Assembly (NCBI GenBank): GCA_003574885.1
Contig: PJFC01000004.1
Location: 62,001 to 126,000, forward strand
DNA length: 64,000 bases
DNA from: Geobacter sp.
Lineage (GTDB): Bacteria > Desulfobacterota > Desulfuromonadia > Geobacterales > Geobacteraceae
Direction: 5' to 3'
In this document: positions 37,115 through 44,880 of the stretch, piece by piece
Layout of the letters: each line of letters opens with the position of its first letter
How positions within the stretch are numbered: position 1 is the first letter of the stretch
Program-made: the position numbers and the translations under genes
Notes under the pieces: model-generated
What the model was told of the DNA's origin: nothing
Database searches by the model: none
What the model saw: only the letters and a program-made list of their open reading frames with translations

Positions 37115-37148
37115 AACGGCCCGCTACTCAACGCGGGCCGTTCTTTTT
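37115..37148 (+). terminator. Intrinsic terminator after leuD
   Basis: AACGGCCCGC (37115-37124) pairs with GCGGGCCGTT (37133-37142), followed by CTTTTT. Confidence 0.85.
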
Positions 37149-37181: not shown

Positions 37182-37210
37182 TTGACGAGGCGAAGTGCGG
37201 GAGATAGTAT
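37182..37210 (+). promoter_or_regulatory. Promoter for the Mla-type operon
   Basis: TTGACG (37182-37187), 17-bp spacer, TAGTAT (37205-37210), about 25 bp before the predicted start of the first gene's leader. Confidence 0.5.
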
Positions 37211-37241: not shown

Positions 37242-38831
37242 ATGGGAAGAGCTAAAGCCTTAGTCATAGCCTGTTGCATGGCCTGCTGCGGATACACTGC
37301 CCCCCTTTGGGCTGCGGAAGAGGGGACATCTGCACGTGAGGGGACGATATTCACTCTCTGGCCCCTCGTGGATTATCGTGAAAGTCCCCGTGAGCATTAC
37401 CGCAACCTGTCCCTTCTGGGGCCGCTGTTCAAGTTCCAGGCCCATGGAGACGACAGTACGTTCGCCGTGCGTCCTTTGCTGTACCGGACCGAGGACCGGC
37501 GCGAACAGACCGTGCAGACGTCCTATCTCTATCCCCTCGCCTCGACCGATTCTTCTCCCCGGGCGACGACGTTCCAGGTGATGCAGCTCCTGCAGAAAAA
37601 CGTCTATCGCAAGGGGGAGGAGGGGGAGGAACACAACAGCCAGTTCTTTCCCTTCTACCTGCAGGGAAAATCCCAAAAGTACGGTTCCTATACGTCGGTC
37701 TTTCCCCTTTACGGCGATATTTACGAGCGTTTCTGGCGCGATGAAATCCATTTTGCCCTGTTTCCCCTCTACAGCCGGACTGTCAGCAGGGGTACCACCT
37801 CCCGCAACTACCTCTATCCATTTTTCAACACGATAGAAGGGGATAAGGAGAGCGGTCTCCAGTTCTGGCCCCTCTATGGGCAGTCCTCCAAGGAAGGTGT
37901 CTACCGGAAGCGGTTTGTCCTCTGGCCCTTCTTTCTGAGCGAAACCAGGGATATCAACACGGATAATCCCAAGGATCGACTCTATCTCTTCCCGTTCTAT
38001 GCGGCCCTCGATTCGCCACAAAGGACTTCCCGCCATTACCTCTGGCCGTTCTTCGGGCATACGGTAGACCGGGGGACAGGGAAACCAGAGGAAGGGGCCG
38101 TAGCTCCTTCTTTTGAAATTCTGGATGAATACGAGGAGCGGAATACGGGAAAACTGGAGGAGTGGGACTATTTCTGGCCTTTCTGGTATACTGTCCGGAG
38201 TGCCGAGCGGAATGAGGTCAGCTGGCTCCCCTTCTATGCCAGGACGGTGAAAAAGGAAACGGAAAAGAACTGGTACATGTGGCCCCTTTACCGTACGGAA
38301 CGGTTGAATTCTCCCCTGTTCAGGCAGGAGCGGAATCGTCTGTTGTATTGGCTCTATAGCGATAATCGCGAGTCCTGGCCTGTGGACGGTGCGTCGCGGC
38401 GCAAGGTGGCGTTCTGGCCTCTCTATGTTTATACGAAGGACCCGAAAGGTGTGATGGGCTTCTCCTTCCCCGCACCCGTGGAGCCGATTCTGGACAAGGA
38501 GGGGATCGAGAAGAACTGGGCACCCCTCTGGCGCATCTACCAGCAGCGGTGGAACGAACAGGGGGACTCGGCAGCATCCTTCTTCTGGAATCTCTACTGG
38601 CATGAGGCACGAGGCAACGACCTGGCCTACGAGTTTTTTCCGCTCCTTGCCTATCGCAAAGAAAACCAATTTACCGATTTCCGGTTGCTGAAGGGTTTCG
38701 TCGGATATCGGAACCGGGCCGGGGCAAAGCGACTGACCCTGCTCTGGCTCCCGTTCGGCATCAACTGGGGTGAGACGGTTGCTATACCGTCTTCCGGAAC
38801 TCTGCAGCCCGTGGCAGGGAGTACACCGTAA
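37242..38831 (+). CDS. Exported protein with about 20 aromatic-Pro repeats, first gene of an Mla-type operon
   Basis: The 529-residue protein has a signal peptide (ending PLWAA near residue 25). After it, short motifs of the form (F/L/Y)-x-(W/F/Y)-P-(L/F)-(Y/F), such as LWPLV, FFPFY, LFPLY, LYPFF, FWPLY, LWPFF, LFPFY, FWPFW, MWPLY and FFPLL, recur about every 15-40 residues to the end. The spacing suggests a repeated beta-strand unit, in a barrel or solenoid. No known family was recognised. The stop overlaps the mlaE start (TAATG), so it probably acts with the lipid transporter, perhaps in the envelope. Confidence 0.7.
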   Translation: MGRAKALVIACCMACCGYTAPLWAAEEGTSAREGTIFTLWPLVDYRESPREHYRNLSLLGPLFKFQAHGDDSTFAVRPLLYRTEDRREQTVQTSYLYPLASTDSSPRATTFQVMQLLQKNVYRKGEEGEEHNSQFFPFYLQGKSQKYGSYTSVFPLYGDIYERFWRDEIHFALFPLYSRTVSRGTTSRNYLYPFFNTIEGDKESGLQFWPLYGQSSKEGVYRKRFVLWPFFLSETRDINTDNPKDRLYLFPFYAALDSPQRTSRHYLWPFFGHTVDRGTGKPEEGAVAPSFEILDEYEERNTGKLEEWDYFWPFWYTVRSAERNEVSWLPFYARTVKKETEKNWYMWPLYRTERLNSPLFRQERNRLLYWLYSDNRESWPVDGASRRKVAFWPLYVYTKDPKGVMGFSFPAPVEPILDKEGIEKNWAPLWRIYQQRWNEQGDSAASFFWNLYWHEARGNDLAYEFFPLLAYRKENQFTDFRLLKGFVGYRNRAGAKRLTLLWLPFGINWGETVAIPSSGTLQPVAGSTP

Positions 38832-39598
38832 TGTTTGAGCGGATAGGGAAAAAGATCCTCAGCTTTTGCGACATCGTCGGCGACCAGTTGATCATGCTCG
38901 GCCAGACCGTCTATTTCTTCCGGGAGGCGCCGCGCAATCTCCAGAGCATCTTTACCCAGATGGCGATCATCGGTTACGAGACCGTTCCCGTTGCCTCGGT
39001 GATGGCGTTCTTCGTCGGGATGGTCCTGGCGTTGCAGACCGGTGTGGAGCTGAACAAGTACGGCGGACAGAACATCATCGGTGCTATTGTCGGCCATTCA
39101 ATGGTACGGGAACTCGGTCCGGTCATGACCAGTTTCCTCGTGGCGGGGAGGGCCGGTTCCGCAATGGCGGCCGAACTTGGAGTAATGCGGGTCTACGAGG
39201 AGATTGACGCCCTGAAGACCCTTGATATCAACCCGGTGCGCTACCTGGTCATGCCTCGCCTCATTGCGAGTCTCATCTGCGTCCCGGCACTGGTCATCTA
39301 CGCCGATGCCATCGGGATCATCGGTGGCGCGATTATCAGCAACCTCCACCCCAAGATTTTCGTTTCCTACACGACATACTACGACAGCGTGACCGATGCC
39401 CTGAAGCTCCGTGAAGTAGGTAACGGCCTGATCAAGTCGGTGGTTTTCGGCGGAATTATCGCCCAGATATGCTGTTATGTGGGATTCAAGACGTCCGGCG
39501 GAGCACGGGGAATCGGCATCTCCACCACCCGGTCGGTGGTCTGGTCGTTCATGCTTATCCTCGTGGCGGACTATTTACTGACCAGAATTTTAATGTAA
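38831..39598 (+). CDS. mlaE: MlaE-family lipid ABC transporter permease
   Basis: The 255-residue inner-membrane permease moves phospholipid between membranes with MCE proteins. It shows the family core GQNIIGAIVGHSMVRELGPV and GRAGSAMAAELGVMRVYEEIDALKTL, with about five membrane segments. ATG 38831 overlaps the upstream stop. The ATPase (MlaF) gene normally found between mlaE and mlaD is absent. Confidence 0.92.
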   Translation: MFERIGKKILSFCDIVGDQLIMLGQTVYFFREAPRNLQSIFTQMAIIGYETVPVASVMAFFVGMVLALQTGVELNKYGGQNIIGAIVGHSMVRELGPVMTSFLVAGRAGSAMAAELGVMRVYEEIDALKTLDINPVRYLVMPRLIASLICVPALVIYADAIGIIGGAIISNLHPKIFVSYTTYYDSVTDALKLREVGNGLIKSVVFGGIIAQICCYVGFKTSGGARGIGISTTRSVVWSFMLILVADYLLTRILM

Positions 39599-39651: not shown

Positions 39652-40701
39652 ATGGCCCTGTCCGTGGAAAAAAAGGTTGGCGTATTCTTTGTTGCCGGGC
39701 TGCTGGTGCTCGGCGTCATGCTTGAGATAGGCGAAAAGTGGAATCCCTTTGATAAGAAGGTCTCCTACCGGACCTATCTGACGAGCATCACCGGCCTCAA
39801 GGTGGGCGACCCAGTCCGGCTGTCCGGCGTGGACGTGGGGAAGATCTCCACCATTACCATCCTTGACGACAAGATCCAGATCGATTTCGATGTCAAGCCC
39901 GGCACCAAGATCCGTACCGATTCGGTCGCGGGACTGCGGCTTACCAACCTCCTCGGCGGGCAGTTTCTCGGCATAACCTTCGGCTCCCCCACTGCACCGC
40001 TTCTGGAACCTGGTGGGACGGTGAAGGGGAAGGACGTTGCCAACATAGATGTCATTGTGGATAACGTGAGTGACCTGACCAAGGATGCCAAAAAGTTCAT
40101 CGAAGAGTTGAACAGGAATCAGAATGAGGTTATGCACAAGATCTCCGGTATACTGGACGACAACCGCGCCAACTTGCGGGACTCCATTGCCAACCTCAAC
40201 AGCATAACCACCAAGTTCGACAGGGGGGACGGCTCCCTTGCTCTCCTCCTGAACGACAAGGCCCTCTATAACAATACCAACGATGTGACTATCTATCTCA
40301 AGGATATCACCGGGAAGATCAGCCGAGGGGAGGGGAGCGTCGGCAAGCTGGTGAACGACGATGCCTTTTATAATGACGCCAAGGTGGCGATGGCCGATAT
40401 CCGGGACAGCATGAAGGATGTGAAGGATATTGCCTCCAAGATCAACAAGGGGGAAGGGACCATGGGCAAGCTCGTCAATGACGAATCCCTCTATACCGAG
40501 TTGCGCGATGCTTCGAAGAACATCGGCGAGATTTCCAAGAAAATCAACGAGGGGCAGGGGACGCTTGGCAAGCTGGTGAACGAGGACGGCCTCTACCGGG
40601 ATACGACCGCTGCCATGAAGAAGGTAGAAAAGGCGGCTGAAGGACTTGGAGACAGTGGTCCCATTTCGGTCATCGGCTCCATCATCGGTACTCTTTTCTA
40701 G
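39652..40701 (+). CDS. mlaD: MlaD-type MCE-domain substrate-binding protein
   Basis: The 349-residue protein has an N-terminal membrane anchor (about 9-26), one MCE domain (SYRTYLTSITGLKVGDPVRLSGVDVG to about residue 125) and a long helical C-terminal part. That tail holds four copies of G(D/E/Q)G(S/T)...(L/M)xxL(L/V)N(D/E)xxx(L/F)Y, near residues 190-330. MCE proteins form hexamer tunnels that carry lipids. ATG 39652 has AGGAGGGAG upstream. Terminator follows. Confidence 0.88.
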   Translation: MALSVEKKVGVFFVAGLLVLGVMLEIGEKWNPFDKKVSYRTYLTSITGLKVGDPVRLSGVDVGKISTITILDDKIQIDFDVKPGTKIRTDSVAGLRLTNLLGGQFLGITFGSPTAPLLEPGGTVKGKDVANIDVIVDNVSDLTKDAKKFIEELNRNQNEVMHKISGILDDNRANLRDSIANLNSITTKFDRGDGSLALLLNDKALYNNTNDVTIYLKDITGKISRGEGSVGKLVNDDAFYNDAKVAMADIRDSMKDVKDIASKINKGEGTMGKLVNDESLYTELRDASKNIGEISKKINEGQGTLGKLVNEDGLYRDTTAAMKKVEKAAEGLGDSGPISVIGSIIGTLF

Positions 40702-40735: not shown

Positions 40736-40766
40736 AATAAATGGCGCGAATTCGCGCCATTTATTT
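40736..40766. terminator. Perfect palindrome after mlaD
   Basis: The 30 bp from 40736 to 40765 are self-complementary (AATAAATGGCGCGAA on each strand) with no loop bases, and T-rich sequence follows. It works as a terminator for the Mla operon in either direction. Confidence 0.75.
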
Positions 40767-40779
40767 TCCGGAGCACCCG

Positions 40780-41655
40780 ATGGATGATTTCCTGCAGATA
40801 GCTGTCGGCACATTTACCATGCGTCCGTACGTGTTCGCCTTCCTGGCGGTCTACCTCGTGGCGGCTGTGCTGCACCTGGGATGGCGGACGACACTCCTCT
40901 TCACGGTCTGCGGCTACCTGGTTTCCTTTGCCTCGGAGGTCAGTTCCATTAATACCGGCTTCCCTTACGGCTGGTACTACTACCTCGACGCCACGAAAGA
41001 CCGCGAACTCTGGATCGCAGGCGTTCCCTTCTTCGACTCGCTCTCCTACGTATTCCTCTGCTACTGCAGCTATTCCACCGCTCTCTGGACGCTGTCTCCC
41101 GTCAAAGCCCGGAAATGGGACATCATCCCCCTGGAAACCCGTGCCCTGCGTCGCTCCTTTGCAGCGCTCCTCCTCGGCTCCCTCTACCAGACATTTCTTG
41201 ATATCATCATTGACCCTGTCTCGTTACAAGGCTCACGCTGGTTCCTCGGCCAGATTTACGGCTATCGGGAACCAGGGCTCCATTTCGGTGTTCCCCTTTC
41301 CAACTACCTCGGGTGGTGGTTCGTAAGCGGGGTTATGATCTTCTTTCTGCAGCGGATCGATTCTGTCACCCAACGTCGCCTGTCCGGCGATGCTCAGCCG
41401 GGCGGAGTGCGACATGTGCCGGGCGCGTCACTTCTTGGCCCCGTCCTTTATCTGTCGGTGGTGATCTTCAATCTGACCGTAGCCTGGCTGATCGGGGAGC
41501 GGCTCCATTTCCTGACCGGGGTGTTCATCTACGCCCTGCCGATCGTCATTGTCCTCGTGATGCTTGTCCGCAGAGCCAACCGTTACGGCAAGGACGAACT
41601 GGCCGAACACCTGCGCGACTACCCCTGGTCACCTCTGGCCGGCCGCAAAGGGTAG
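40780..41655 (+). CDS. CruF-like (DUF422) carotenoid/terpenoid biosynthesis membrane protein
   Basis: The 291-residue protein has about seven membrane segments and resembles the DUF422 group that includes the carotenoid 1',2'-hydratase CruF and bisanhydrobacterioruberin hydratase (segments SFASEVSSINTGFPYGWYYY and IIIDPVSLQGSRW). ATG 40780 follows CCGGAG; an upstream ATG at 40741 lies inside the palindrome and is not used. It ends 2 bp from the convergent hpnG. Here a role on a hopanoid or other triterpenoid is more likely than carotenoids; that is inference. Confidence 0.72.
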   Translation: MDDFLQIAVGTFTMRPYVFAFLAVYLVAAVLHLGWRTTLLFTVCGYLVSFASEVSSINTGFPYGWYYYLDATKDRELWIAGVPFFDSLSYVFLCYCSYSTALWTLSPVKARKWDIIPLETRALRRSFAALLLGSLYQTFLDIIIDPVSLQGSRWFLGQIYGYREPGLHFGVPLSNYLGWWFVSGVMIFFLQRIDSVTQRRLSGDAQPGGVRHVPGASLLGPVLYLSVVIFNLTVAWLIGERLHFLTGVFIYALPIVIVLVMLVRRANRYGKDELAEHLRDYPWSPLAGRKG

Positions 41656-41657
41656 AT

Positions 41658-42419
41658 TCAGAGCTCGGACAGAAGTATTCCCACCACCTGTGCCAGGTTT
41701 TCCCCCGCCCGTTTTGAATTCCGTGCCAACCGTACAAGCTGGGGGATCAGCCATGGGCGGCGGGTCAACGACCAGAGTACCCGGTGTACCCTGATGTTCA
41801 TGTTCCGGTCGGTGAAGTCGGTAATGTTGAATCCCAGTTCTTCTGTTACGTCGTCGCTTATGGCCCGTACGGCCAGTAGCGGTAGGCCTTCCCGAGTGGT
41901 TACTTTGGCTATTGCCGCCGTTTCCATCTCCAGTACCGGATTGACCACGCTGGCCGGCAGAAGTCGGGCCGTCTCCCGTTTCGCCAGGATGGTGCCGGCC
42001 GTGACGCAGGTTCCACGGCAGACCTGGAAGGATGTCCCCGCCAGTTCACTCTGCAGCAGGTCGATGGCTGTTTTCGCCAATTCCGGGGACAACCCCTGCT
42101 GTTCCGAAAAGAGCCGTTCCCGGGCAAACAGGAGCCGCTGGGCTATGACCACGTCGCCAACCCCGAGGCCGGTGGTGACCGCACCGGCCAGGCCGAAGTT
42201 TATGATGAGGTCGGGTGTGGCGGCGGCTATCAGTGCAGAAGCTGCACGGCCGGCATTTTCCGGACCAAGACCCGACTCAATCAGGCAGGCATCTCGATCG
42301 CCGGCACGAAACCGGTAGAGGGTGTAATCGCCGGCCCTTTCCCGTGTGTACGTTTCTATTCGGGCGAGGAGCGGCTTGATCTCTTCCGGCATGGCGGCTA
42401 TGAGGCCGATGGTTGCCAT
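41658..42419 (-). CDS. hpnG: HpnG-like hopanoid-associated phosphorylase/nucleosidase
   Basis: The 253-residue protein has a PNP/MTAN fold: MATIGLIAAMPEEIKPLLARI at the start, INFGLAGAV, and the late VLEMETAAIAKVTTREGLPLLAVRAISDD substrate and catalytic region. HpnG releases adenine from adenosylhopane to make ribosylhopane. ATG 42419 has GGGAGA upstream. It is divergent from hpnJ, and the other hopanoid genes beside it support the call. A generic MTA/SAH nucleosidase or futalosine hydrolase is the alternative. Confidence 0.72.
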   Translation of the reverse strand: MATIGLIAAMPEEIKPLLARIETYTRERAGDYTLYRFRAGDRDACLIESGLGPENAGRAASALIAAATPDLIINFGLAGAVTTGLGVGDVVIAQRLLFARERLFSEQQGLSPELAKTAIDLLQSELAGTSFQVCRGTCVTAGTILAKRETARLLPASVVNPVLEMETAAIAKVTTREGLPLLAVRAISDDVTEELGFNITDFTDRNMNIRVHRVLWSLTRRPWLIPQLVRLARNSKRAGENLAQVVGILLSEL

Positions 42420-42513
42420 AAACGTCTCCCGTGAAATTAATTGCACGACACTCGAAATCTAACAGACGGGCTGTTGCCAGGCAACCGAAAAGCGGTGGCA
42501 GCGGTCTTTAACC

Positions 42514-42542
42514 TTGACAAAAATCCCCCCCCCGTCTATCTT
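42514..42542 (+). promoter_or_regulatory. Promoter for hpnJ-hpnK
   Basis: TTGACA (42514-42519), 17-bp spacer with a run of nine C, TATCTT (42537-42542), about 40 bp before the hpnJ ribosome-binding site. Confidence 0.55.
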
Positions 42543-42589
42543 ACAAGTTTGCTTTTTTCTAAAAAGATGAGCAGTTACAGGAGCTTTTG

Positions 42590-44017
42590 ATGAAACCCCT
42601 ATTCCTCAACCCCCCCACTTTCGAAGATTTTGACGGCGGCGCCGGTGCCCGTTACCAGGCGTCCCGCGAGGTAACTTCCTTCTGGTATCCCACCTGGCTC
42701 TGCTACCCGGCCGGCATGATAGAAGGCTCCCGGGTGGTCGATGCACCGGTGCAGCGCCTGGACCTGGCCGGTTGCCTGGCCATTGCCAAGGATTACGACG
42801 TGGTGGTGATGTACACCTCCACCCCGACCCTGTCCATCGATACGACCACGGCTCGCGCAATCAAGGCCCAGAAGCCGGGGACCGTGATTGTCTTCACCGG
42901 CCCCCACGTCACCATCCAGCCGGAGGAGACGTTACGCTTCACCGCTGGGGCCGTGGACATCGTCTGCCGCGGCGAATTCGACTACGCCATTGTCGAACTT
43001 TGCGAAGGGCTGGAGTGGGAACGGATCCAGGGGATCAGCTTTATGCGCGACGGCAAGGCCCTGCACACCGAGGACCGGCCGATCCTGACCGATCTGGACG
43101 CACTCCCCTTCGTCTCCCAGGTCTACAAGCGGGACCTGCCGATCCCAGAGTATATCATTCCCCACTTCAAGAGCCCCTACGTGGCCATCTACACCAGCCG
43201 CGGCTGCCCGGCCAAGTGTACCTTCTGCCTCTGGCCCCAAACCTACTCCGGCCAGCGGATGCGCACCCGTTCCCCCCAGAACGTCTACGAAGAGGTGAAG
43301 TGGATCAAGGAGAACCTCCCCCATGTGAAGGACATTTCCTTTGATGACGACACTTTTTCCGCCGATCGCAAGCACGCCCGGGCCGTGGCCGAACTGATCA
43401 AACCCCTCAATGTCTCCTGGGTCATCAATGCCCGGGCCAACTGCGACTTCGAAACCCTCAAGATCATGCGTGACGCCGGCCTCCACCACGTCATCGTCGG
43501 TTTCGAGAGCGGCAACGAGCAGATCCTGAAGAACATCAAGAAGGGGGTCTCGAAGGAGCAAGCGATCCAGTTCGTCAAAGATTGCAAGAAGCTCGGCATC
43601 ACCATCCATGGTGCTTTCATCATGGGGCTTCCCGGCGAGACCCGGGAGACCATCAAAGAGACCATCGAGTACGCCAAGCGGCTCGATCTCGAGTCGATCC
43701 AGGTTTCCCTGGCGTCGCCCTACCCGGGCACCGAGTTCTGGGAGCAGTGCAAGCGCGAGGGGTGGATTGCCTCGGAGAACTACATCGACGACACCGGGCA
43801 CCAGATGTGCGTCATCAACTACCCCCATCTTTCCAACCAGGAGATTTTCGATGCGGTGGAGCGGTTCTACAGCAAGTTCTACTTCCGGCCCAAGTACATC
43901 GCCCGGAGCATCGGCAAGATGATCGTGGACGCTGAAGTACGGCGCAAGCTGCTCAAAGAAGGGAAGCAGTATTTCGAGTACATGAAAAAACGGAAGACCG
44001 CCCAGCCCGCGAAATGA
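42590..44017 (+). CDS. hpnJ: HpnJ-type B12-binding radical SAM protein, hopanoid side-chain modification
   Basis: The 475-residue protein has an N-terminal cobalamin-binding-type domain (about 1-170), then the radical SAM core with the cluster motif SRGCPAKCTFCLWPQ near residue 207 and FDDDTFSADR. HpnJ makes the cyclitol ether head group of bacteriohopanepolyols. AGGAG precedes ATG 42590. Its stop overlaps the hpnK start as ATGA. The order hpnJ-hpnK is known from hopanoid loci. Confidence 0.88.
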   Translation: MKPLFLNPPTFEDFDGGAGARYQASREVTSFWYPTWLCYPAGMIEGSRVVDAPVQRLDLAGCLAIAKDYDVVVMYTSTPTLSIDTTTARAIKAQKPGTVIVFTGPHVTIQPEETLRFTAGAVDIVCRGEFDYAIVELCEGLEWERIQGISFMRDGKALHTEDRPILTDLDALPFVSQVYKRDLPIPEYIIPHFKSPYVAIYTSRGCPAKCTFCLWPQTYSGQRMRTRSPQNVYEEVKWIKENLPHVKDISFDDDTFSADRKHARAVAELIKPLNVSWVINARANCDFETLKIMRDAGLHHVIVGFESGNEQILKNIKKGVSKEQAIQFVKDCKKLGITIHGAFIMGLPGETRETIKETIEYAKRLDLESIQVSLASPYPGTEFWEQCKREGWIASENYIDDTGHQMCVINYPHLSNQEIFDAVERFYSKFYFRPKYIARSIGKMIVDAEVRRKLLKEGKQYFEYMKKRKTAQPAK

Positions 44018-44880
44018 AAGAACTGATCGTCAATGCCGATGATTTCGGCCTCTCTGCAGGGGCCAACCGGGCGATCATCCGGGCTTGGCAGGAGGGGATT
44101 CTCACCTCCGCCTCCCTGATGGTCGGAGGCCGAGGTTTCGATGAGGCGGTGGACCTGGCCAAGGCCAATCCCGGCCTCCAGGTGGGGCTCCACCTCACTC
44201 TCCTCCAGGGGCGGGCCGTGGCTGAGCACCAGGGTTTCCCTGCCCTGGCCGACCGGGACGGGAATTTCGGCAACGATCCGGTCCATGTGGGCATGAGATT
44301 ATTCTTCGTCAAAGCCCTTCGTAAGCAGCTCTTTCGAGAGATCGAGGGACAGCTGGAGCGGTTTGTTGCCACGGGGATCCCCCTCTCCCATGTTGACGGC
44401 CACCTGAACATCCACATGCATCCTACCGTCTTTGCCATTCTGTCGGAACTCATGCCCCGATACGGAATTACCACCTTCCGCCTCTCCCTGGAGCGGCTTG
44501 GCGTGGAATTGGCGATCGACCGGCGCCGTATGGTGGGGAAGGCCGCTGATGCCTTCATCTTCAGCCGCCTGGCCGCCTCCTGCCGGCCGGTGTTGGACCG
44601 GATGGGAATCCGCTATGCCGGCGAGGTAAAAGGGCTCCTGAATTCCGGGCGGATGACGGAGGACTATCTGCTGCGCTCCCTTGACCGGCTGGAGGAAGGG
44701 ATGACGGAAATCTATTTTCACCCCGGTTGCCATCCCGATGGGGAGCTTTCCAGGTGGATGCCGGACTATCAGCACGAGGCGGAACTGGCGGCGCTGACGA
44801 GCCCGCGGGTGAAGGAAAAGCTACGGAACTTGGGAATAAAACTCAGAAACTATCGGGGGGAAGAGAAAATATATGTTTAA
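44014..44880 (+). CDS. hpnK: HpnK-type YdjC/ChbG-fold deacetylase, hopanoid biosynthesis
   Basis: The 288-residue protein shows the YdjC metal motifs: NADDFG at residues 7-12, LHLTLL, HVDGHLNIHMHP and the late HPGCHPDGE. HpnK is thought to deacetylate an N-acetylglucosaminyl hopanoid. Coupled at both ends: four bases shared with hpnJ and eight with the small transporter gene. Confidence 0.86.
   Translation: MKELIVNADDFGLSAGANRAIIRAWQEGILTSASLMVGGRGFDEAVDLAKANPGLQVGLHLTLLQGRAVAEHQGFPALADRDGNFGNDPVHVGMRLFFVKALRKQLFREIEGQLERFVATGIPLSHVDGHLNIHMHPTVFAILSELMPRYGITTFRLSLERLGVELAIDRRRMVGKAADAFIFSRLAASCRPVLDRMGIRYAGEVKGLLNSGRMTEDYLLRSLDRLEEGMTEIYFHPGCHPDGELSRWMPDYQHEAELAALTSPRVKEKLRNLGIKLRNYRGEEKIYV

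Follow-up and report, generated by a model that had tools for sequence, protein, structure and literature searches.

An exported aromatic-Pro repeat protein family as candidate outer-membrane end piece of barrel-less MlaEFD systems

A 64,000-nucleotide stretch of a Geobacter sp. genome (assembly GCA_003574885.1, contig PJFC01000004.1, positions 62,001 to 126,000 of the forward strand; hereafter the window) encodes an exported 529-residue repeat protein beside genes for an MlaE permease and an MCE (MlaD-like) protein. Here we show that this protein belongs to a large and widespread family, so far without name or description, for which we use the working label FAM. Functionally, FAM very probably works with the MCE transporter, and we favour a role as the outer-membrane end piece of MlaEFD systems that lack a barrel, with its site and mechanism inferred. 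The first-pass annotation of the window had proposed that the protein may be an envelope partner of a lipid transporter, a proposal that is now strongly supported by linkage in two phyla and two gene orders, by the exclusion of the alternatives and by a distinctive tail on the associated MCE proteins.

The MlaD protein of Veillonella parvula spans the envelope by means of a barrel of its own in the outer membrane. Most diderm bacteria have an elongated MlaD, the majority of these without a barrel, and in PVC bacteria MlaD never carries one (Grasekamp et al. 2023, PMC10665443). That study left open what forms the outer-membrane end of barrel-less long MlaD systems. FAM fits this gap because it is a separate gene beside barrel-less, tail-bearing MCEs and is excluded by the other two solutions. 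For two phyla it is a concrete candidate for the missing end, the question can be tested directly in genetically tractable Geobacter, and a large family undescribed by Pfam and NCBIfam gains a name and a proposed role.

Linkage of FAM to mlaE and MCE genes

The genes on which the argument rests, and the MCE tail, lie in the window as follows.

37242..38831, + strand: FAM, 529-residue exported aromatic-Pro repeat protein; proposed to partner the MlaE/MCE transporter on the outer-membrane side
38831..39598, + strand: mlaE, MlaE-family permease (PF02405); its start codon overlaps the stop of FAM
39652..40701, + strand: MCE (MlaD-like) protein, 349 residues; transmembrane helix, MCE domain and GxGTLGKLVND-type repeats, no barrel-sized C-terminal extension
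40657..40698, + strand: C-terminal tail of the window MCE, GPISVIGSIIGTLF; tail type common to FAM-associated MCEs

The open reading frame keeps the coordinates and length first assigned to it, and its annotated coupling to mlaE is borne out by the FAM stop codon TAA, which overlaps the mlaE ATG as TAATG (..GTAATGTTT..). The mlaE product matches PF02405 at 257 bits and TIGR00056 above its cut-off, and the MCE protein gives MlaD-type matches with PF02470 above its cut-off.

This arrangement recurs far from the window. Either mlaE or an MCE gene, or both, lies beside FAM in 37 of the 39 Desulfobacterota loci read, which clearly contradicts the outcome named in advance as damaging to the partner proposal, that relatives are never near Mla genes. 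The Desulfobacterota loci mostly have the gene order mlaE-mlaF-MCE-FAM (read gene by gene in locus L077), otherwise FAM-mlaE-.., and 18 of 20 Verrucomicrobiota loci read FAM-mlaE-mlaF-MCE. Directly following FAM, mlaE was found in 43 of 44 loci, nearly all from Geobacterales, the exception being a cut contig; mlaF is linked in most distant FAM loci and unlinked in the Geobacterales loci read. Because two differing gene orders are kept across two phyla, we conclude from these comparisons that the linkage of FAM to mlaE and MCE is maintained by selection, beyond inheritance alone. An apparent MCE–FAM fusion (L087) was rejected, as the stretch between both parts is a run of N. At two other loci (L092 and L109), the MCE–FAM pair has two LivG/LivF-like ABC ATPase genes upstream in place of mlaE and mlaF.

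The MCE proteins linked to FAM share a C-terminal tail, ..E-Q-T-P-I-T-V-L-G-T.. (for example, EQTPITVLGTVLGTVLK), which is present in 51 of 54 cases. It is also present in all five MCEs from genomes that carry FAM elsewhere (L183–L187) and in an MCE with FAM about 4.8 kb away (L194). None of the 34 control MCEs has it, and these take in second MCEs from genomes with FAM; by eye, the control endings are plainly unlike the FAM-type tail. This co-occurrence of tail and FAM without linkage is the best hint in the sequences of a physical partnership. Judged by its length of 349 residues and its ending, the window MCE has no C-terminal beta-barrel; MCEs of the barrel class run to about 480–560 residues and end differently. 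A separate class of MCE (L188–L192 and L163), present as a second MCE in FAM-bearing genomes, ends in ..PxxYEDLKxxLGGAKRSK...

The aromatic-Pro repeat and its predicted fold

37356..38753, + strand: FAM repeat region, approximately residues 39–504; one [W/F]P[L/F][Y/F] core per 17–22 residues, predicted open beta meander

The window FAM carries 17 [WFYL]P[LFIVW] cores between residues 40 and 503, usually spaced by 17–22 residues, and 16 aromatic-Pro pairs, against means of 2.6 and 6.3, respectively, in shuffled versions of the protein; among 20,000 shuffles, the observed number of cores was never reached and that of pairs once. The stricter pattern (F/L/Y)x(W/F/Y)P(L/F)(Y/F), by which the repeat was first described, occurs only four times (shuffled mean 0.03, reached in none of the shuffles); the repeat itself is real over residues 40–503, and the wording of the motif needs to change. 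The motif occurs 819 times across 59 FAM members (a median of 14 copies each, modal spacing 18), with the consensus F-x-L-[WF]-P-[LF]-[YF]-G and with about 11 polar or charged residues separating successive cores. Among 33 diverse members, prolines 61, 78, 98, 155, 175, 193, 210, 229, 251, 269 and 313 never vary. The shuffle counts, the consensus and the invariant prolines together establish that the repeat is real, under selection and common to the whole family.

Two AlphaFold runs, each with 14 sequences in the alignment, gave a mean predicted local distance difference test score (pLDDT) of 71 and a predicted template modelling score (pTM) of 0.45 for the window FAM, and of 76 and 0.55 for a Citrifermentans homologue. 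Both models show about 44 strands of around six residues with very short turns between them, arranged in one open antiparallel sheet, and both place the [W/F]P[L/F][Y/F] cores in the turns; the aromatic-Pro tips would therefore line up along a single long edge of the sheet. Structural comparison ranked the sheets of TCP10, OspA, MORN and apoB best (VIA Z 8–13 over 130–280 residues), these matches being partial with a root mean squared deviation of 4–20 Å. Like FAM as modelled, the MORN, TCP10 (CPAP G-box) and OspA sheets and the apoB beta belt are open antiparallel meanders of short strands; unlike it, they do not have aromatic-Pro tips as their repeat signature, and there is no sequence relation, with no Pfam match to the MORN repeat for the window FAM or 33 homologues. 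The top Foldseek matches (IFT, teneurin, and WD40 and RCC1 propellers) were set aside, with template modelling scores near 0.1 and meander arrangements that are common. We provisionally describe FAM as an open single-layer antiparallel meander, which by itself does not establish a new fold.

This bears on whether FAM might instead be an integral outer-membrane beta-barrel, porin- or LptD-like, that serves as the exit or entry pore of the MCE tube. The predicted all-beta content would suit such a barrel, as would the fused barrel of the analogous long MlaD, the F or W that ends around 13 of 61 homologues as in outer-membrane barrel proteins, and partial structural matches to LptD, VDAC and OmpF-type barrels. 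These barrel matches, however, sit among the lower-ranked ones and do not rise above the MORN, TCP10 and OspA sheets; the strands, at around six residues, are short for crossing a membrane and lie in an open sheet in both models; and their flanks are highly charged (30–50%). We consider a barrel unlikely on this balance. Of the earlier suggestion of a new beta-barrel or solenoid, the beta character is retained by prediction, whereas the models are an open meander and a barrel or solenoid is unproven.

FAM and other outer-membrane parts

37242..37316, + strand: predicted type I signal peptide of FAM, approximately residues 1–25, ending ..PLWAA (MGRAKALVIACCMACCGYTAPLWAA); read from sequence

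Eight of 61 FAM homologues, distant ones, carry a lipobox whose +2 residue is A, S or T (non-Asp), and most others have a signal-like N terminus without a lipobox. By the rule established for Escherichia coli, A, S or T at +2 after the lipobox directs a lipoprotein to the outer membrane.

FAM and the outer-membrane parts of known systems avoid one another. Of 297 Desulfobacterota genomes, 14 have both FAM and MlaA, 80 FAM only, 138 MlaA only and 65 neither (odds ratio 0.08, p=4e-18); the corresponding counts for MlaC are 18, 76, 151 and 52 (odds ratio 0.08, p<1e-17). At the level of families, the table for MlaA becomes 7/18/54/16 (p=2e-5), which corrects for phylogeny only in part. Neither MlaA nor MlaC was seen within the FAM operon, and where a genome has both FAM and MlaA, the listed places do not share a contig or, in the case of the window genome, are separated by 124 kb.

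The MCE proteins fall into length classes of about 150–220, 270–440 and 480–650 residues. Five of the six long MCEs that were read through end in a barrel-like ..F/Y-x-G-x-G-x-x-F-x-D-D-D-L-K-Y-L-L.. and the sixth (L181) in a variant; another long MCE protein (L199) has an end that is not of this type. In a 118-genome subset, long MCEs (490 residues or more) are present in 0 of 43 genomes with FAM versus 18 of 75 without it (p=2.6e-4), and in 111 of the 118 genomes one or more of FAM, MlaA/MlaC and a long MCE is present.

The same data weigh on a second alternative, in which FAM is a periplasmic scaffold, a long beta ribbon that wraps or stabilizes the MCE tube, and not an end piece at the outer membrane. 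MORN-like single-layer sheets are usually scaffolds, the predicted sheet is long (its approximately 44 strands would span an estimated 20 nm or so when fully extended) and most members lack a lipobox. Exclusion with both MlaA/MlaC and long MCEs nevertheless points to a common end function, the MCE feature that co-occurs with FAM is the extreme C terminus, and in some lineages the lipid anchor has an outer-membrane-type +2 residue. A scaffold therefore seems to us improbable, slightly more so than a barrel.

Several observations count against FAM as an outer-membrane end piece. The exclusion statistics for MlaA and MlaC are only partly corrected for phylogeny, and the 14 genomes with both FAM and MlaA include that of the window. 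The tail pattern was defined after inspection of the FAM-linked MCEs. A recognizable lipobox is present in just 8 of 61 homologues, and the remainder could be soluble periplasmic proteins. The barrel of long MCEs was judged from length and C-terminal sequence, not structure prediction, and two of the 18 long MCEs (in genomes G174 and G161) may not fit the barrel picture. With mean pLDDT of 71–76 and pTM of 0.45–0.55, whole-molecule confidence is low and the aromatic-edge picture is provisional.

With these points in mind, we infer physical docking, an outer-membrane location and lipid contact for the FAM end piece. The MlaE permease, the MlaF ATPase and a medium-length MCE would form an inner-membrane pump with a periplasmic helix tube. 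FAM, as a Sec-exported protein that is probably lipid-anchored in some lineages, would sit at the far, outer-membrane end of this tube, where the hydrophobic MCE tail (..PITVLGT..) would dock to it. The edge of around 16–20 aromatic-Pro hairpin tips may contact the inner leaflet of the outer membrane or lipid acyl chains, such that lipid exchange between the tube and the outer membrane could dispense with MlaC and MlaA. FAM would then be to barrel-less MCEs what MlaA/MlaC are to short MlaD and the fused barrel is to long MlaD. In its fullest form, which we advance only tentatively, the proposal is that FAM may represent a third, independently evolved outer-membrane finish: a stand-alone single-layer beta protein, not a barrel, whose aromatic-Pro comb exchanges lipids at the inner leaflet, docked by a dedicated tail of the MCE hexamer and replacing MlaA/MlaC or a fused barrel in Desulfobacterota and Verrucomicrobiota.

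Comparison with the canonical Mla system of E. coli (MlaFEDB with MlaC and MlaA) shows a common MlaE-type permease, MlaF-type ATPase (linked in most FAM loci), MCE protein and presumed inter-membrane lipid traffic; in FAM systems, by contrast, the MCE is longer and FAM is present instead, statistically exclusive with MlaA and MlaC. Tested against the six canonical parts (MlaFEDBCA), the window genome has no PF05494 match for MlaC and has an unlinked MlaA (PF04333 at C11:223360, approximately 124 kb from FAM). PqiC, the lipoprotein of PqiABC, is a small protein. Like FAM, it is an envelope protein with its own gene alongside that of an MCE, and it is thought to cap the outer-membrane end (PMC10897342); unlike it, FAM is a beta repeat protein of about 500 residues with no Pfam match to the PqiC-type family ABC_trans_aux (PF03886). 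The barrel-bearing MlaEFD system of V. parvula (PMC10665443) resembles FAM systems in its three-gene core, elongated MCE and independence of MlaA/MlaC, and differs in that the FAM-system MCE ends after about 350 residues in a short hydrophobic tail, too early to accommodate a barrel, and in that FAM is a separate gene, never found together with a long MCE in the 118 genomes.

Operon surroundings and family spread

37115..37142, + strand: hairpin resembling an intrinsic terminator, with T tract, 3' of leuD; 10-bp stem, 8 GC, folding z-score −3.96
37182..37210, + strand: promoter-like site TTGACG-17-TAGTAT, 31 nucleotides upstream of the FAM start; weak
40741..41655, + strand: CruF/Caroten_synth-like membrane protein (PF04240), next gene after MCE

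Given the hairpin and T tract after leuD, the transcription unit is probably FAM-mlaE-MCE, set apart from leuCD. A terminator consensus scan did no better than on shuffled sequence, and the count of promoter-like sites was not above that of shuffles. Of the parts of an Mla/MCE system in the broad sense, the window operon has the permease and the MCE and no MlaF ATPase gene. The best match in the same genome to FAM-linked MlaF is an orphan MlaF-like gene on another contig (L161, C9:156197-156910), which has no adjacent mlaE and a product nearer to FAM-linked MlaF proteins than is the MlaF of the genome's second mla locus; we regard it as a candidate only for the ATPase of the window operon. That second locus (L117, C1:826000-844000) reads mlaE-mlaF-MCE without FAM, and its MCE ends in ..KENPKRYVKFSLF, not in the FAM-type tail.

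After the MCE gene (40741-44880) come the CruF-like gene, an HpnG-like nucleosidase on the − strand, HpnJ (771 bits) and HpnK. The CruF-like gene is next in 10 of 10 Geobacterales loci that reach that point. These neighbours are a hint only of a possible link between the FAM-associated MCE system and hopanoid or polyterpenoid lipids. On the strength of this conserved CruF-like neighbour and the hpnG, hpnJ and hpnK genes that follow, FAM might be considered a lipid- or substrate-specific accessory, for example in hopanoid or carotenoid handling, and not a general end piece; this is very improbable, as HpnJ is found in just three Geobacterales loci, distant HpnJ-like matches are weak and confined to L083 and L106, and, for the window genes tested, most distant FAM loci lack a neighbour of hopanoid type, not every gene being annotated. 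For the last reason, we rejected the hopanoid context as the primary function of FAM.

FAM homologues are present in 78 of 141 genomes of the window's order, 94 of 297 sampled Desulfobacterota genomes and 68 of 145 Verrucomicrobiota genomes, with no match on plasmids or in viral contigs. The first-pass annotation had recognized no known domain and, in agreement, Pfam holds no family for the window FAM at E<=10, and neither NCBIfam nor Pfam gives a match over cut-off for it or for 33 diverse homologues. A sequence search of the PDB found no relative, the single match at E=2 being due to chance, and searching the literature on GSU1898-1901, on LA_1737 and on MlaE in Geobacter returned nothing relevant. 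The one curated family near FAM is NF047486, the C-terminal domain of the LA_1737 family, which takes its name from a Leptospira gene and has no stated function. Weak matches to it occur in 6 of the 33 diverse members (best E=7e-5), and suggest a distant relative beyond Desulfobacterota and Verrucomicrobiota; the window FAM itself scores 11.8 bits against a curated cut-off of 60. Two FAM-like proteins of Verrucomicrobiota (L155, 4564-7887, and L156, 5699-7243), one of 1107 residues and one with a lipobox, have no MCE neighbour and are possibly paralogues with another role.
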